Below are positions 4,010 to 15,406 of a DNA stretch of 31,778 nucleotides, piece after piece. Source of the stretch: a virus. Each line of letters opens with the position of its first letter. The stretch's first letter is position 1. The stretch covers positions 1-31,778 of the IMG/VR virus record IMGVR_UViG_3300024289_000077; one strand, 5' to 3'. A program made the translations under genes and the position numbers. Below the pieces are notes generated by a model. The model was not told where the DNA came from. It did no database searches and worked only from the letters and a program-made list of their open reading frames with translations.

Positions 4010-4855
4010 TTAGTGTACCTCTTGTACCTCGTCAAGCTTGACTTTCACCGCTTCGCCCTTGGAGTTCTTAGCGTTGAATGTCTTGGTTTTTTCGTTGTAG
4101 GACAACAAAGTAACCTTGCCAGCTTTGGGCATCTTCGAAGTCTTGACAGTGGCTTTGGAGCCTACCCAACTGTTCGGGTCGTCATCTTCTGAATCATCAT
4201 CTTCAGAATCTTCCTCGGCATCGTCTTCGTCTGAATCGTCGTCGTTGTCGGATTCGTCTTCATCCGAATCTTCTTCTTCATCCTCTTCTTCAGATTCGTC
4301 ATCATCTTCGCTTTCAGAGTCTTCTTCCTCGGACTCTTCGAGTGGACGGTTGACTCGAACATCGAGACCTTCAGCGGCGTATCGACTGAGTGTGATTGAG
4401 ACAAGGGGTTGATCCTCCTTAATGGAAGTGAGAATGGACTTGATGGTGGACTCTGAAAGGTCGTCTGTGTCGTAACCAAGATTTTGTAACGTGAAAGCCA
4501 AGTCCTTGAAGGCTTGTTCTTCTGTACGATTACCTTGCTCGTACAGTCCGATGTACTTGGACGGAGTTTGACCAGCACCGATTGAACCAGTACAAACGAA
4601 GTTGAAAGACGCGAACATATTTTTGTTCTTGTCCAAACCGACACGGCCACCTGTGCAACGTGCAGTTGTAGTAGCCTTACCACCAACGCGAAGATTGAAT
4701 GCTTCAATCTGTTCTTCTTTGGTGGTGTACCCTGTTGGAGCCTTCTCCTTCCCTGCCTTCTTGAGGACAGTTGCTTTGGACTTCATCTTCTTGAAGAACT
4801 CTGCGGAAGTGTCCTTGAGACCTCGATTAGCTCCCTTGTCTGACTTCTTTACCAT
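4010..4855 (-). CDS. Probable ssDNA-binding protein with acidic linker and extra C-terminal domain
   Basis: Likely coats single-stranded DNA at the fork and during recombination. The 281 aa comprise a Lys-rich N-terminus (1-40), a beta-rich domain (about 50-165) whose end (LQNLGYDTDDLSEST and following) recalls DUF669-type phage ssDNA-binding proteins, an acidic tract (about 173-227, almost only Asp, Glu and Ser), and a basic, small beta-barrel-like C-terminal domain (229-281). In typical SSBs the acidic segment is the extreme C-terminus; here it is internal. Evidence for function is the gene neighbourhood (RecA-like ATPase and nuclease upstream, polymerase downstream) plus domain resemblance, with no decisive motif. 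ATG 4855 has AAAGG 10 bases upstream. The gene lies alone between a repeated promoter-like motif (4871-4891) and a terminator, which fits strong expression. Confidence 0.7.
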   Translation of the reverse strand: MVKKSDKGANRGLKDTSAEFFKKMKSKATVLKKAGKEKAPTGYTTKEEQIEAFNLRVGGKATTTARCTGGRVGLDKNKNMFASFNFVCTGSIGAGQTPSKYIGLYEQGNRTEEQAFKDLAFTLQNLGYDTDDLSESTIKSILTSIKEDQPLVSITLSRYAAEGLDVRVNRPLEESEEEDSESEDDDESEEEDEEEDSDEDESDNDDDSDEDDAEEDSEDDDSEDDDPNSWVGSKATVKTSKMPKAGKVTLLSYNEKTKTFNAKNSKGEAVKVKLDEVQEVH

Positions 4856-4920: not shown

Positions 4921-5784
4921 CTACTCTTCGGTTTCTTCCAAGAAGATTCCGTTTTTGATTTTGTTATCCCAAGCTCGGATGAGGGTTTCATAACCCTTAG
5001 TAGGGTCATTGGGTAATGAGAAACCGTTTAATGGAACTCCCTTTAGATTGCAGAACCTATTGGGGAGTCCACACTTTGTCCAGATGGTGTCCCATCGGCA
5101 ATGGACTGCTCTGGATTTGTTGTGGTGTCCGATGAAGAAAGCAAAGTCCATTGCTACCTTCAACCAATCGAACACACTCGTATTGCAAGCCGGAGAGTAA
5201 ACATTATCTGTTGTTCCGGTATTCAATTCACCTTCACGTTCTTTTGTGTGTGCTGTGAAGATAACTCCAAGTCTTGAATCGAACTTCAAGTTATTGAATA
5301 CACTCGTAAACTCTGAATTGATTTCGTTTCGTGATGCTCCGTAATCCTTCTTAGGAACAAACTCCATGTTATTGACTAAACACCAATTACGCTCACAAGC
5401 TTTGTAGCATTCATTGATGTTGTCAATACCGATAACTTTGATCGACTTGTCGGACTCTGCTTGTTCAAGTAACGCTATGAATTTCTTCCAAGCGTTTTCA
5501 GCACCACGTTCCATATCGGGAACTGTACTAATTCGAAAGTCAATCTGTCTTGCTTTGATGTTACGTCTTGCTGGTTCGAATTGAAATATCAATGAACCAG
5601 GAATCGATGCTATCAGAGAAGACTTTCCAACACCTGCGGTTCCATGAAACAACGTGTAGTAATCAAAGAAATCATCAGATGGTTGTGTGAATTCTTCAGG
5701 GCCAGGGATAGACCATTCTGAAGAACTGTCGGACGCTTTAACCGATCTACCTGTCGGTCGAACTTTCTTAGCTCTAGCTACCAT
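4921..5784 (-). CDS. RecA-like (Sak4-type) ATPase
   Basis: Phage nucleotide-binding protein, 287 aa, probably promoting strand annealing or exchange in phage recombination with its partner ssDNA-binding protein. Walker A is G48-TAGVG-K54-S55; Walker B is the hydrophobic strand IKVIGID ending in D121. A later strand, LGVIFTAHTKE, fits the RecA/AAA core. The first 40 residues are basic and probably disordered. ATG 5784 has a very strong Shine-Dalgarno (AAGGAGGG), but start codon and half the Shine-Dalgarno are folded into a hairpin (5781-5816). The gene lies between a PD-(D/E)XK nuclease gene and the ssDNA-binding protein gene, an arrangement common in phage recombination modules. The ATPase assignment is firm; the exact recombinase role is inferred. 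Confidence 0.85.
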   Translation of the reverse strand: MVARAKKVRPTGRSVKASDSSSEWSIPGPEEFTQPSDDFFDYYTLFHGTAGVGKSSLIASIPGSLIFQFEPARRNIKARQIDFRISTVPDMERGAENAWKKFIALLEQAESDKSIKVIGIDNINECYKACERNWCLVNNMEFVPKKDYGASRNEINSEFTSVFNNLKFDSRLGVIFTAHTKEREGELNTGTTDNVYSPACNTSVFDWLKVAMDFAFFIGHHNKSRAVHCRWDTIWTKCGLPNRFCNLKGVPLNGFSLPNDPTKGYETLIRAWDNKIKNGIFLEETEE

Positions 5785-5860: not shown

Positions 5861-6937
5861 TCAGTTATTTTTTACTGATTTTTTTTTAGCTTTATCTGCC
5901 GATTTTTTAGCTTCCCATAACGCACCAGAGGAAAAGTCTAGCTTGCTAACGCTTCCTTGCTCTCCTTGAAGTTCTGGAAATACCGTCTCTACTCGGACGA
6001 GTCCTAATTCTCTTCCAGTAGTCGTTAGTTCGAAGTAATCGCCTACGCCTAGCGTCATTGGATCGAAGATTCCGAACGGTGTTCGATAGTGGTGAGGATT
6101 TACGTTTCCCTGCTCGTCCACCCAGGGATTGAACGGGTTTGATTTTATTGACTCCCACCAGATTACAACGTTCTCAATTAACGGTACAAGCGTTTGATTG
6201 AAGAAGTTAGTTATATCTGATTGAACCAATTCTACTTCATACCTTTTGAAGAAGTGTTCAGGGTCTTTTGCAACCGTAGCACTTAATCTTTGTAGGTATT
6301 GAAGTTCCGTTTCCTTTGCACTTTGTTTCGTGCTAGGTCTTCGTATGACGTTGTAGAGTACCCCACCAATAGGTTTGTCAGGGTAATCGTGTGTCATCGA
6401 ATAAATGTACAACATTGTTTGAAGGTCATGAGGCAACGTCATGATGATCTTGTTTTCATCAATGGTTGTCTTTGTTTTGTTTTCTTGCAACCAGAGTTTC
6501 TTATTTCTAATAAACTCTTCGTCACGCCTACCACGAAGACGGATTATCTTACCCGTAGTGACTGACTTGTATGGAATGTCAAATACTCGTTCTTGAGCAA
6601 TGTACTTGATATTTGAGTTCTTGTTTATCGCTATGTAGTGTGGAACAAGTACACAAGCTTCTCGAACTAACATTTGGTCAACTGAAGTATCTTTGTACAG
6701 TTTAATAACTGTATTGATTACTTGAGTTGTAGTCTTACCAGATGCAGTCAACTCAAGTGCTTTATGGAACACTGTTCCAAAGTCCATTGCGGCTCGACGT
6801 TCAGAAGGACGTAATCCTTCTACTGCTGAAAGTCGGAAACGCTCTTTGCAGTTTCGGTACTTGCATAGCATGGAATATGAAATTCCGTCTCTATACAAGT
6901 CCCATACAGGTGATCTTGAAATGGATTTTTTCTTCAT
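5861..6937 (-). CDS. PD-(D/E)XK nuclease (RecB/Cas4-like)
   Basis: Probable exonuclease of the phage recombination or replication module, 358 aa. The N-terminal ISYSMLCKYRNCKERF stretch and GTVFH58KAL match the start of the PDDEXK_1 (RecB/Cas4-like) family. The catalytic core is D139 (GRRDE) followed by E152-N-K154 (LQENKTK). There is no C-terminal cysteine triplet, so the iron-sulphur cluster seen in Cas4 and AddB is probably absent. The C-terminus is lysine-rich (KKSADKAKKKSVKNN). ATG 6937 has only a weak Shine-Dalgarno. It lies just upstream of the RecA-like ATPase gene (76-base gap). It is a recombination nuclease by context, not evidence of a CRISPR system: no cas genes or repeats are present. 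Confidence 0.85.
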   Translation of the reverse strand: MKKKSISRSPVWDLYRDGISYSMLCKYRNCKERFRLSAVEGLRPSERRAAMDFGTVFHKALELTASGKTTTQVINTVIKLYKDTSVDQMLVREACVLVPHYIAINKNSNIKYIAQERVFDIPYKSVTTGKIIRLRGRRDEEFIRNKKLWLQENKTKTTIDENKIIMTLPHDLQTMLYIYSMTHDYPDKPIGGVLYNVIRRPSTKQSAKETELQYLQRLSATVAKDPEHFFKRYEVELVQSDITNFFNQTLVPLIENVVIWWESIKSNPFNPWVDEQGNVNPHHYRTPFGIFDPMTLGVGDYFELTTTGRELGLVRVETVFPELQGEQGSVSKLDFSSGALWEAKKSADKAKKKSVKNN

Positions 6938-9414: not shown

Positions 9415-10932
9415 TCAATTAGCCCTTTCTAGCAGAAAAGCATTCCATCTTTCAGCCATGCTAGAGGCTGTGTACTTGCTTATGTCAACAGAACATGGCT
9501 TAGCTTTAAGTATGTAGTTTGTAATACTTCTAGCAGACTCTTCAGGTTCGAATACCGAGCAACCAATATCTCCGTACTTATTCGTTAAAGACTTAACTAT
9601 GCCGACATTCGATGCGGCTACTGGAAGTCCAAACAACATAGCTTCCATAACAGAAAGCCCAAACCCTTCTTGCGAAGAACAAGATACAAAGCAATCTAGT
9701 AGAGCTAGAGTATCGCCAACTCTTTCAACTGCTGGTAGGAATATGAATCTGTCTTTTGGTATCCCTGCAAAGATTGCAGCTTCTTCTAGGTCATAGTGGC
9801 TTCTCCAACCACTTATGATTAAGTAAGCATTGTCTATGAAGGATACTGCTTTCATCAATTTTTGAATGTTCTTTTCAGAACTGGTTCTACCTGTGTAACC
9901 AACTACATAAGCGTCTTCAGGTATCCCTAAGTACCCTCTCAAATCTTTTCTGGAGGAGGAGGAGATAAGGCGATCAACGTCAACTCCGTTTTCTATTGTC
10001 TTGCAAGGTTTGCCGGTGACACGTTCAACGAGCTTAGAAGCTTCATCAGATACGCCTACAAAAGACCTTGCATAGTCTTTAGCATCAGATATCCATTTCT
10101 CTGTGTATTGACAAACACCGTGAGCTACGCAAATTAAGTCTGCACTTCTATGTATAGCTGTATTGAAGATATTGGAAGCTATGATCGGCACTTCATGGTA
10201 GATAGCATCTGATAGTGTTACGTTTGGAGCATACGTATTCAAACTTTGAATGATATCAGGATCAGGTATTCCATTCATATCACGTTGAATAACTCCAAAG
10301 CAAGGTATGTTCTTTGCTAGAGATATTGACCAACGTTCTAATCCACCATACTCGACAGGTTGCCACAATGCGAATTTAGAATCCCATTGACGATGGAATT
10401 CAGATAGTGTTATTTGTGGATGGTTACTACCTTGATCGGTAAGATTTTGATTGATGAGGTTATGAAATTCGAATCCCCATAGATGGAACTTGTCGTAAGA
10501 TGAAAAGTCTGGTGGGAGTTTTCGCATAGCTTCATTAGCATCTCGAACACAAGCACAATCCTTCGGTATGGTGGACTTCCATATTTTGAAGAACTTCTCT
10601 AGGGTGCTTGGTGTTGCTGTCTTATCGCGGAACGTATGAAGCATCTTCCATGATTTCCTACCCTTGTCAGCTTTGAGTCTCTTGAAACGCTCTGTAGCGT
10701 CTTCTTCAACCAAGTCAGTTGGTGCTGAAGATATAGGGAACCTAGAGTACTTGGTTGCAGGGTTTACGTGCGGTAAGAATCGCACTTCACCAGAACGTAG
10801 TTCTATTCTTCCGCACTTACAGACTATCGGGAAGTTTAAACCTTCTTCGTTTTGTAGCTCAAACTGGCAATCAATACACTTCCATTGAGTAACCTTGGGA
10901 CGTTTTACTTGGGGACGGATTCGGCATTTCAT
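9415..10932 (-). CDS. Zinc-ribbon / GT4-type glycosyltransferase
   Basis: Probable GT-B fold retaining glycosyltransferase, 505 aa, with an extra N-terminus. Residues 15-45 form a zinc-ribbon-like unit (C19-x2-C22 and C38-x-C40). A middle segment (IPKDCACVRDANEAMRKL) is a short Cys-containing module whose role is unclear. The C-terminal Rossmann half has YVVGYTGRTSSEKNIQKLMKAV, then LIISGW, and the family 4 E-x7-E motif E422GFGLSVME430 that positions the nucleotide sugar. Acceptor is unknown: phage virion protein, phage DNA or a host glycan are possible. It directly follows two virion-type genes (four-base overlap with the first), which favours virion glycosylation, but this is inference. Confidence 0.85.
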   Translation of the reverse strand: MKCRIRPQVKRPKVTQWKCIDCQFELQNEEGLNFPIVCKCGRIELRSGEVRFLPHVNPATKYSRFPISSAPTDLVEEDATERFKRLKADKGRKSWKMLHTFRDKTATPSTLEKFFKIWKSTIPKDCACVRDANEAMRKLPPDFSSYDKFHLWGFEFHNLINQNLTDQGSNHPQITLSEFHRQWDSKFALWQPVEYGGLERWSISLAKNIPCFGVIQRDMNGIPDPDIIQSLNTYAPNVTLSDAIYHEVPIIASNIFNTAIHRSADLICVAHGVCQYTEKWISDAKDYARSFVGVSDEASKLVERVTGKPCKTIENGVDVDRLISSSSRKDLRGYLGIPEDAYVVGYTGRTSSEKNIQKLMKAVSFIDNAYLIISGWRSHYDLEEAAIFAGIPKDRFIFLPAVERVGDTLALLDCFVSCSSQEGFGLSVMEAMLFGLPVAASNVGIVKSLTNKYGDIGCSVFEPEESARSITNYILKAKPCSVDISKYTASSMAERWNAFLLERAN

Positions 10933-11993
10933 GTTATTTTTATGTAGTAGTTACAACTACCTCTTTCAAAGATGTTGGTGTTAGTTGTGCATAGGCACGT
11001 TAAGTCTGTTGGAGCAACGTAAAATGGCCCATACACTAGTTCAAAAGGATAACAACTAGAGGATATAGGTAACTGTCCTCCTATGCAACCTCCACAACTA
11101 TTTGTACACCCTTGAAGAATAGTCATTACCATTGTGTCTGCGGTTAGCTCTCCAGTACCTTCCCCTGTAGGACAACTAACAGCTACTCTCCAGTTCTGTC
11201 CGGTATTCACGTACCCTTCACAACAGAAACCTTCTCCTTCCCATCTGGATTCAACTCTATTCCAGTAGATAGGGAAAGTACATTCCGGCAGTAGGTTGAG
11301 TCTTTCGCAATTAGCAGGATCGGGGTAGATAGTTACAGTTAGCATCGGTGGAAGAATTTGATCTTCGCACTTACATAAACAATGCCCACAGTCTTCGTTT
11401 GTTTGGAAGTGTTCTTTGAATTCGAATTGGTCTATGACTGCTGCATCAGAGTTAGCAAACATCCCACTGTAGTATCCGTCTTCGAACAGTGGGGGCGGTG
11501 TTACACCTACATAGGATAATGTAGCATTAGTTACTTTGGCACAGAATTCTGTATCAGATATCAGTGCTTCAAAATTTCTAGTCAAATCAACTAATCCTAG
11601 AACTATGTCTTGAGCTAGTATAGTCTCGACCCCATTTGAAGATATTCCTAGCTTGATTATCGAGTCTGCTGTACCGTTTCGTAAGAAGTCTGCAAAGAAG
11701 AAACTGTTAATGTTACTTGCTTTAACTACGTTCAACATTATCCTATAACGAATACCTCCATTAGGTATTTCGTCTTTGATAGTCATTACTACGTGCATCG
11801 ATTCGTCTGGAACCGGATGCTGAACGTCTAGGATTGCTGTTGCCCCTGAAGAATCCGGTCTTGCTGCAAAATCAACAATGTTAAACTCTGTACCTTCATT
11901 AAGCCAGGGCAGGTCTAACCTATCCTTATTCGGCCTGTTGAAGGTATCTTTATAGATTGTGCAAGTTCGACAACAGCAAGGAAATCCTACCAT
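10929..11993 (-). CDS. Cysteine-rich virion-type protein (probable tail adhesin)
   Basis: A 354-aa protein with 21 cysteines, including CCCRTC at residues 6-11, CGHCLCKC mid-protein and CTNSCGGC near the end. Residues about 15-190 (YKDTFNRPN ... LDVQHPVPD ...) have the pattern of a concanavalin/LamG-like beta sandwich seen in phage tail appendages. The C-terminal 150 residues form a Cys-rich module beginning LTVTIYPDPANC and containing WEGEGFCC. So many paired cysteines suggest an extracellular, disulphide-stabilised particle protein, perhaps host-binding. The start is ATG 11993, one base after the previous stop. The glycosyltransferase gene follows with a four-base overlap. Virion role is inferred. 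Confidence 0.65.
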   Translation of the reverse strand: MVGFPCCCRTCTIYKDTFNRPNKDRLDLPWLNEGTEFNIVDFAARPDSSGATAILDVQHPVPDESMHVVMTIKDEIPNGGIRYRIMLNVVKASNINSFFFADFLRNGTADSIIKLGISSNGVETILAQDIVLGLVDLTRNFEALISDTEFCAKVTNATLSYVGVTPPPLFEDGYYSGMFANSDAAVIDQFEFKEHFQTNEDCGHCLCKCEDQILPPMLTVTIYPDPANCERLNLLPECTFPIYWNRVESRWEGEGFCCEGYVNTGQNWRVAVSCPTGEGTGELTADTMVMTILQGCTNSCGGCIGGQLPISSSCYPFELVYGPFYVAPTDLTCLCTTNTNIFERGSCNYYIKIT

Positions 11994-13614: not shown

Positions 13615-14892
13615 GAGTTGAAGTCCGGTATCTTCTTCAGTTGTTTCTACTAAACTGGTTGCCGGTTTGTCCGGCATGTTAGACTGACCTTGTTCTGCAA
13701 CTATTGCGTCTTCCAAGGTAACTCTTTCTACAGTGTAGTTGGTTGACTTAAAGTTTACAAGAGCAATGTAATCTATCACTTGTTTCTTGAAGTCATATAT
13801 GGCTTGATCTGCTAGACTAGCCAAGGTGCTGTAGTACAGCATCATCGGAACTTTTCTACCTGTAGCTGAACCCATGCCATTATCGTTCTGCGATTCAGTT
13901 ACTTCAGGCGGAATACCTAATGCTTCTAGAATCTCATAACGAAGTTCTTTCGGGTACTCCATAAGGCCGTTTGGAGTGATGTTTGCTGAAGGTGGGGTGT
14001 ATCCCCATTTCTGCGTGCCTGTAGCGGCGTTAACGTCATCTGGGAATACTCTGAACCCACCAGTACGCATGTTAGACATCATACGTACAGCTAAGTCCAA
14101 GTTATCTATTTCTTGGAGTCCAACTTTGGTTTTACCGATTGGGTATCGAATCTCCCCACCATCAAACGCATTCTTGATAAACCAAGTTCTACGAATGTCT
14201 CTACCACCGTACATTACGTACAGTTCGTGCCATGGGATGCTGCACCATTCTAATCTTGATTGACCGTAGATAGGGTTAGCATTACGTTCATGGACATGCC
14301 ATAGAATTTTAGGGAACAGTAAATCGGCATGAGCATCGCTTGCGTCAACGGACTTGATCCTAGCTCCAACCATTTGATGTTTGTATATCAAAGGCTTAAC
14401 GGAGTCTGGATGATACCATTTCAAGCAATCGTACTCGATTCTATTGCCGGTATCTTGCCCGTTCTTGAACATGACTTGAGAACATGAAAATCCGTACTCA
14501 ATAGCTTTGAGTGCTTGGCTAAGCCCATTCGTCCAGAAATTACGAAGCGTTTTCAAAACTAGTTGTTCCAACTCTTTGTTGTCAGACTTCACTTTGTAAA
14601 TGAACTCTGCCCCGTTTGCTTTGAGAAGGTCAATCAAAGCGGGATTGCTACTACGCTCTGCTTCAATGAATATCGTATTGTAAGTGATCGGACCTTTAAG
14701 CATTTGCAGTCCAAAACGAATCCTACCATCACGTAGCATGGCAGGGATCATTGTCGCCGTGAAGTACGGTATGTTATGACCGTATTCAGGATCGTACATA
14801 GCAATAGCACTAGGAGAATTCCCAAGATACCTTACAGGGTCTTGGGTATACGTTGTCAGCATTTCATGAACTGAACTCTTAGGCTTACTCAT
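13612..14892 (-). CDS. Portal protein
   Basis: Dodecameric ring at the capsid vertex through which DNA passes, 426 aa. It resembles the DUF935/Mu gp29-like portal group: an N-terminal DPVRYLG... region, GLSQALKAIEYGFSCSQVMF in the stem-like core, the typical NPIYGQSRLEW motif (P-x-YG-x-S-x-L) around residue 210, and a C-terminal helix (LASLADQAIYDFKKQVIDYI). The end is acidic and probably disordered. ATG 14892 starts two bases after the stop of the preceding -1 frame, with AAGAG 8 bases upstream. It is unusual that the portal lies after the tail genes, about 8.6 kb from the major capsid gene. Confidence 0.85.
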   Translation of the reverse strand: MSKPKSSVHEMLTTYTQDPVRYLGNSPSAIAMYDPEYGHNIPYFTATMIPAMLRDGRIRFGLQMLKGPITYNTIFIEAERSSNPALIDLLKANGAEFIYKVKSDNKELEQLVLKTLRNFWTNGLSQALKAIEYGFSCSQVMFKNGQDTGNRIEYDCLKWYHPDSVKPLIYKHQMVGARIKSVDASDAHADLLFPKILWHVHERNANPIYGQSRLEWCSIPWHELYVMYGGRDIRRTWFIKNAFDGGEIRYPIGKTKVGLQEIDNLDLAVRMMSNMRTGGFRVFPDDVNAATGTQKWGYTPPSANITPNGLMEYPKELRYEILEALGIPPEVTESQNDNGMGSATGRKVPMMLYYSTLASLADQAIYDFKKQVIDYIALVNFKSTNYTVERVTLEDAIVAEQGQSNMPDKPATSLVETTEEDTGLQL

Positions 14893-14894
14893 AG

Positions 14895-15406
14895 TTAACT
14901 CTTTTTGGATCGATCTTCGCGTAGAAGGAACATATTCTCAACACTATCGGCAAACTTTTCGTCATTAAAAGCACGCATAACTATGCCTTTAATTGTTGAA
15001 GAGTTAACAGGCAAAAGAGTTTCGTATATCTCTCTTGCCTTTAGGGTGGGTATGAACAAAGCAAGTAGCTTTAGGTCTCTTGTGTGGAGGTTGGAAGGTG
15101 CAACTCCGTAATATCGTATTGCTTCTGCGATAGGCAGGATTTTTTTTTAAGGTCTTCCATCAAATCGTTTGCGTAGTTGAACAAAGTGATCGCTTGCGAT
15201 TTCGTCAACGGTACGTTGTACTTTTCGTGAAGCATGTCTGCGTAGACTTCGAGAGCTTCCTTACCGAGCTTGTTTGCTTGGTCTACTGCTTCCCCATAGC
15301 ACGTAATAACGTCAATCGATTCGGCACTTGCCAACACCTTATTCGAAGAATCTATAAGGTCGATCATTGCGTCTACGTCTGGAGCAATTGCGAATTTTAC
15401 CGACAT
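14895..15406 (-). CDS. Predicted -1 frameshift product, 170 aa
   Basis: Reading from ATG 15406 to the A9 run at 15148-15140, then slipping back one base, the frame continues (LKKK to ILPIAEAIRYYGVAPSNLH and onward) to a TAA at 14897-14895, two bases before the portal ATG. The added 80 residues look like protein (balanced helices, hydrophobic spacing, basic end DRSKKS) and fill an otherwise empty 176-base gap. The slippery sequence A-AAA-AAA fits -1 ribosomal slippage, and runs of nine A also allow transcriptional slippage. A short/long product pair is the layout of tail assembly chaperones, but here it follows rather than precedes the tape measure gene, so function stays open. A sequencing length error in the run is the alternative. 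Confidence 0.65.
15071..15406 (-). CDS. Zero-frame product of the frameshift gene, 111 aa
   Basis: Starts at ATG 15406 with AGGGG 7 bases upstream. Residues 1-89 are a helical, acidic domain (VDAMIDLIDSSNKVLASAES ... GKEALEVYADMLHEKYNVPL). After LKKK at the A9 run the zero frame gives a short tail SCLSQKQYDITEL and onward to TAA at 15073-15071, which is low in hydrophobic residues and may be only the consequence of not slipping. The gene lies between the large tail protein and the portal. Whether both forms are made depends on slippage at 15140-15148. No family recognised. Confidence 0.75.
   Translation of the reverse strand: MSVKFAIAPDVDAMIDLIDSSNKVLASAESIDVITCYGEAVDQANKLGKEALEVYADMLHEKYNVPLTKSQAITLFNYANDLMEDLKKKSCLSQKQYDITELHLPTSTQET
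15140..15148 (-). other. Slippery A9 run (candidate -1 frameshift site)
   Basis: Nine consecutive A on the minus strand read CTT AAA AAA AAA TCC in the zero frame. GGAAG lies about 7 bases upstream and could act as a stimulatory Shine-Dalgarno-like element. A short CTGC/GCAG pair follows. Slippage by -1 opens an 80-residue extension ending at the portal start. Confidence 0.65.

Follow-up and report, generated by a model that had tools for sequence, protein, structure and literature searches.

Organization of the locus between the tail genes and the portal gene

The window analyzed in this study is the complete 31,778-nucleotide stretch of IMG/VR virus record IMGVR_UViG_3300024289_000077, and the gene under study lies on its minus strand, between a gene for a large tail-region protein and the portal gene. 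Its zero-frame ORF (15406-15071, minus strand) encodes 111 aa, the predicted short product, and residues 1-89 form an N domain that is kept in the family. Within the ORF, a run of exactly nine A (A9, 15148-15140, minus strand) starts on a codon boundary and places the heptamer A_AAA_AAA in phase, the junction codons being CTT AAA AAA AAA TCC. A -1 slip at this run opens an extension (15140-14895, minus strand) of 81 residues past the slip point and would yield a 170-aa fusion with the N part. The stop codon of the -1 frame, TAA (14897-14895), is followed by CT and then by the portal ATG at 14892. An earlier sequence-only reading of the window had the length and strand of the A9 run, the zero-frame end at 15071 and the 170-aa -1 product right; it also correctly ended the extension two bases before the portal ATG, while its length of 80 residues is corrected here to 81. 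A second A9 occurs in the window at 5887-5879 (minus strand), near the end of a PD-(D/E)XK exonuclease gene (5861-6937), where a -1 slip adds only about three residues and gives no real extension. Three strands and three helices make up the predicted fold of the N domain (pLDDT 91.8), and fold searches with this domain gave no clear structural match, a result that shows neither a new fold nor an absence of relatives.

The neighboring genes are read from the same strand. The portal protein (Portal_Mu type, 426 aa, 14892-13612) matches Pfam PF06074 (E 3.4e-6) and a portal PHROG (E 6e-6). Directly upstream of the frameshift gene, as also in relatives, lies the gene for the large tail-region protein (838 aa, 17956-15440), for which no Pfam, PHROG or PDB match was found. 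The next protein (836 aa, 20469-17959) is the probable tape measure protein, assigned by its position together with a weak match to a tail length tape measure PHROG (E 7e-7) that falls in a low-complexity, glycine-rich stretch. The presumed tail tube protein (196 aa, 21168-20578) is conserved in relatives, has no database match, and was assigned by position only. The interval between the presumed tube and tape measure genes, which is the usual slot for a tail assembly chaperone, spans 108 bases (20577-20470) and contains no ORF.

Relatives of the gene and selection on the extension

Relatives were sought in IMG/VR with the portal protein, and the gene beside the portal was then read in each contig. 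The first two portal searches yielded six contigs with portal identities of 65-71%. In all six, the gene is flanked by those for the large tail protein and the portal, and its -1 frame stays open up to the portal; five carry A9, and the sixth (L005) carries eight A followed by G. Since five of these closest relatives lie on contigs of 54-58 kb and no terminase was recognized among the window ORFs examined, the window record is probably a fragment. Wider portal profiles reached portals at approximately 31-37% identity, and later still further ones. The same gene was found beside the portal in 48 further IMG/VR contigs, and its extension lies in the -1 frame in 46 of these, although near-copy contigs among the 46 mean that the number of independent lineages is smaller; in the remaining two (L037 and L038, which are identical) the extension is in frame with the N part. 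One contig additional to the 48 (L091) begins inside the extension. The extension is only weakly matched (E 0.003) in three of the 46 (L106, L107 and L112), which share a single sequence. By profile comparison, the extension of L062 clearly belongs to the family, as does that of L065 (prob 84.8), the N part of which is less clear. Two other candidates, L010 and L011, were rejected as chance hits of a two-sequence profile.

The comparison with homologues could have spoken against a frameshift, and the finding that the downstream -1 frame is conserved in relatives favors the sequence-only reading. The extension is also protein-like in that frame. In pairs with enough change, dN/dS of the -1 frame was mostly 0.06-0.14 (0.46 for L004/L007), compared to approximately 1.0-1.6 when the same bases were read in the zero frame, with synonymous change saturated in two of the pairs. 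The extension stretch therefore truly codes for protein in the -1 frame, and purifying selection acts on it in that frame only. Synonymous divergence was far lower in the extension than in the N part for two close pairs (0 versus 0.15 for L004/L006 and 0.04 versus 0.23 for L007/L008), which could reflect either an RNA element or recombination.

That independent contigs carry the slip site and an open -1 frame at a matching location is beyond chance. In A/T-rich loci, the presence of an A9 somewhere is not rare by itself, with up to 1.3 runs expected per locus; its non-chance feature is its fixed position and phase. The slip site was the sole A or T run of at least eight in 16 of the 20 loci checked, and an open -1 frame of the length of the extension has a chance of roughly 0.3-2.5% per locus.

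Slippery heptamers and the probable mode of frameshifting

The window and each of the 46 relatives that show the -1 layout have an X_XXY_YYZ heptamer in zero-frame phase at the junction, and six types were found. Most members have A_AAA_AAA; the run of L103 is only seven A long. A_AAA_AAG occurs in L005 (A8G), A_AAA_AAC in L063, and both A_AAA_AAA and A_AAA_AAC in L035. T_TTT_TTC, with six T, is found in L065, L108, L109 and L110, T_TTT_TTT in the L106 group, and G_GGA_AAC in L083, L084 and L086, where the zero-frame stop directly follows the heptamer. The family thus shows a slip site that has been swapped for quite different heptamers with the -1 relation kept.

This variety bears directly on whether the frame break is an artifact. 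A sequencing or assembly error, by which the true run would be A10 and the gene a plain 170-aa ORF, has a precedent of sorts in L037 and L038, which do carry A10 and a plain long ORF. However, the -1 relation recurs in assemblies made independently, at A9, A8G, A8C, T_TTT_TTC and G_GGA_AAC, the last of which a homopolymer error cannot explain. The error was rejected on account of the G_GGA_AAC and other members, and the chance that it accounts for the window is negligible.

A second potential explanation, which the sequence-only reading had left open, is transcriptional slippage: as in Thermus thermophilus dnaX, an extra A would be inserted at A9 by RNA polymerase, and ordinary translation of the resulting A10 messages would yield the long form. 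Slippage of this kind requires a long homopolymer, which in many bacteria means about nine A (PMC1088944; PMC5009743), a length at which it is efficient and which most members of the family keep; in addition, no ribosomal stimulator common to the family was found. However, the long homopolymer that marks slippage of the Thermus dnaX type is not kept across the family, and the same -1 layout occurs with G_GGA_AAC, which contains no homopolymer, with the six-T T_TTT_TTC, with A7 (L103) and with A8G (L005), while every heptamer is in the phase that ribosomal slippage requires. The G_GGA_AAC, T_TTT_TTC and A7 members rule out transcriptional slippage as the family-wide mechanism, and it is improbable as the source of the long form, although RNA polymerase slippage may be an added contributor in members with A9. 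Since transcriptional slippage depends on long homopolymers, only ribosomal slippage accommodates every member, and the turnover of heptamers with their phase kept indicates ribosomal -1 frameshifting instead.

The comparative sequence evidence makes it nearly certain that translation of the gene involves programmed -1 ribosomal frameshifting. The majority of ribosomes would stop at 15071 and release the 111-aa protein, while a fraction, with Lys tRNAs on A_AAA_AAA, would slip back one base and continue to produce the 170-aa fusion; we infer that both products are made from the gene. A search for a downstream RNA structure shared by all members of the family found none; a stem-loop was predicted in the L005/L007/L008 group, and strong Shine-Dalgarno-like sites lie just upstream of the slip site in L035 and L063 only. 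The A-rich site is of the same kind as those of E. coli dnaX (A_AAA_AAG) and of Thermus dnaX slippage (A9), but dnaX is an unrelated gene, and the E. coli site has defined stimulators; no stimulator shared throughout this family was found.

In one lineage the zero frame now encodes the long form. The two contigs concerned (L037 and L038, the sequence of which is also present in MAG contig MGYJ01000055.1) carry an A10 run at 5612-5621 in a locus of 60% G+C; the zero-frame product is the long form of 183 aa, and a -1 slip reaches a stop after one codon (ACA TGA). This layout, in which the zero frame yields the long form and the slip stops at once, follows the logic of dnaX, for which the exchanged-frame pattern is known (PMC5009743), and the lineage could still make both forms with the roles of the frames exchanged. 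The in-frame long protein of L037, folded alone, gave a pLDDT of 45 and was not used.

Displaced position and possible function

The usual way to recognize frameshifted tail chaperones is their location upstream of the tape measure gene. The family described here has no match among Pfam, PHROGs or PDB sequences and is placed elsewhere, with the usual slot empty in several relatives, which widens where such genes may be sought. The order tape measure, large tail protein (approximately 570-850 aa), frameshift gene and portal holds in every relative with readable upstream genes, as does the unusual position after the tape measure gene, which the sequence-only reading had pointed out. Across relatives the predicted tape measure length ranges from 257 aa (L038) to 1175 aa (L005), and the size of the frameshift gene is constant. 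The usual slot contains no ORF in L034, L035, L062, L063, L065 and L066, as in the window, and an ORF of 75-83 aa in L029-L033 except L032. This ORF could encode another chaperone and so counts against the chaperone role considered below, whereas the empty slots count in its favor.

We consider it probable, on the basis of gene layout and sequence comparison, that the gene combines a frameshift with a tail assembly chaperone role of the lambda gpG/gpGT type, displaced from its usual slot. Lambda gpG/gpGT and its kin (P2 E/E', HK97) share with it a short N-domain protein of approximately 90-140 aa, a -1 frameshift near the end of that protein, a helical-looking extension and a location within the tail gene block (PMC5009743). 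As in such chaperones, one gene within the tail block is predicted to give a short and a frameshift-extended product, and the N part and extension are of the sizes seen in known chaperones. In such a role, the tape measure protein would be bound by the N domain, and the less abundant fusion would recruit tail tube subunits through its C-terminal domain. In contrast to the lambda group, the window gene follows the tape measure gene rather than lying between tail tube and tape measure (the usual, though not absolute, site) and adjoins the portal gene, and neither domain has a significant match to the lambda, P2, HK97 or RoyalG chaperones. Given the departure from the usual position and the weak sequence similarity, the gene is not formally assigned to the gpG/gpGT chaperones; it most likely functions as they do.

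The nearest cultured phages by portal protein (approximately 24% identity) are Andromeda-type phages and Geobacillus phage GBK1; tblastn against cultured phages found no match for the frameshift protein of the window or of L066, and for that of L063 only matches with E of at least 1. The chaperones of Bacillus phage Andromeda (gp23/gp24) and GBK1 share with the family an in-phase A run, theirs ending in AAG, an N part of similar size (113-115 aa in the two phages) and, probably, a remotely similar extension, but their genes occupy the usual place before the tape measure gene and their portal genes stand at the start of the head genes. With a profile of the extension, the -1 extensions of the GBK1 and Andromeda chaperones took the first and second ranks among 56 sequences, ahead of every other protein tested from these two phages. 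The match (prob 62.6, P 7e-5) covers 43 columns only and came from an enlarged profile tried after a smaller one gave P 0.0066; its score was reached by none of 400 column shuffles and by neither of two reversals. The N domain has no detectable similarity to the Andromeda and GBK1 chaperones. Remote homology of the extension with this chaperone type is likely.

It is also conceivable, though unlikely, that the frameshift is real and the function is a different one, with portal or neck assembly or portal dosage served either by the two products or by a coupling between shifted ribosomes and the start of the portal gene. Throughout the family the gene lies beside the portal, whose start is reached or overlapped by the -1 frame, and the similarity to chaperones is weak. 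However, the ranking of known chaperone extensions over all other tested proteins of two phages argues against this explanation, and the gene is not directly next to the portal in L106/L107/L112 and L066. There is a correspondingly small chance that the gene belongs to an undescribed frameshift cassette, linked to the portal instead of the tape measure, in a widespread group of uncultured phages, in which the ratio of products or ribosome coupling would govern portal or neck assembly.

Two further genes on the minus strand of the window deserve mention. The first (9415-10932) encodes a glycosyltransferase (Glycos_transf_1), the N-terminal part of which matches Erv1/Alr sulfhydryl oxidases (E 7.5e-9), a fusion that would not be expected in a phage; a comparable stretch of L008 seems, by eye, to be a stand-alone ORF of 126 aa (11086-11466). 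The second (4010-4855), located between Sak4-like and family A DNA polymerase genes, encodes a 281-aa protein with a long acidic, D/E-rich stretch and is possibly a single-strand DNA-binding protein.
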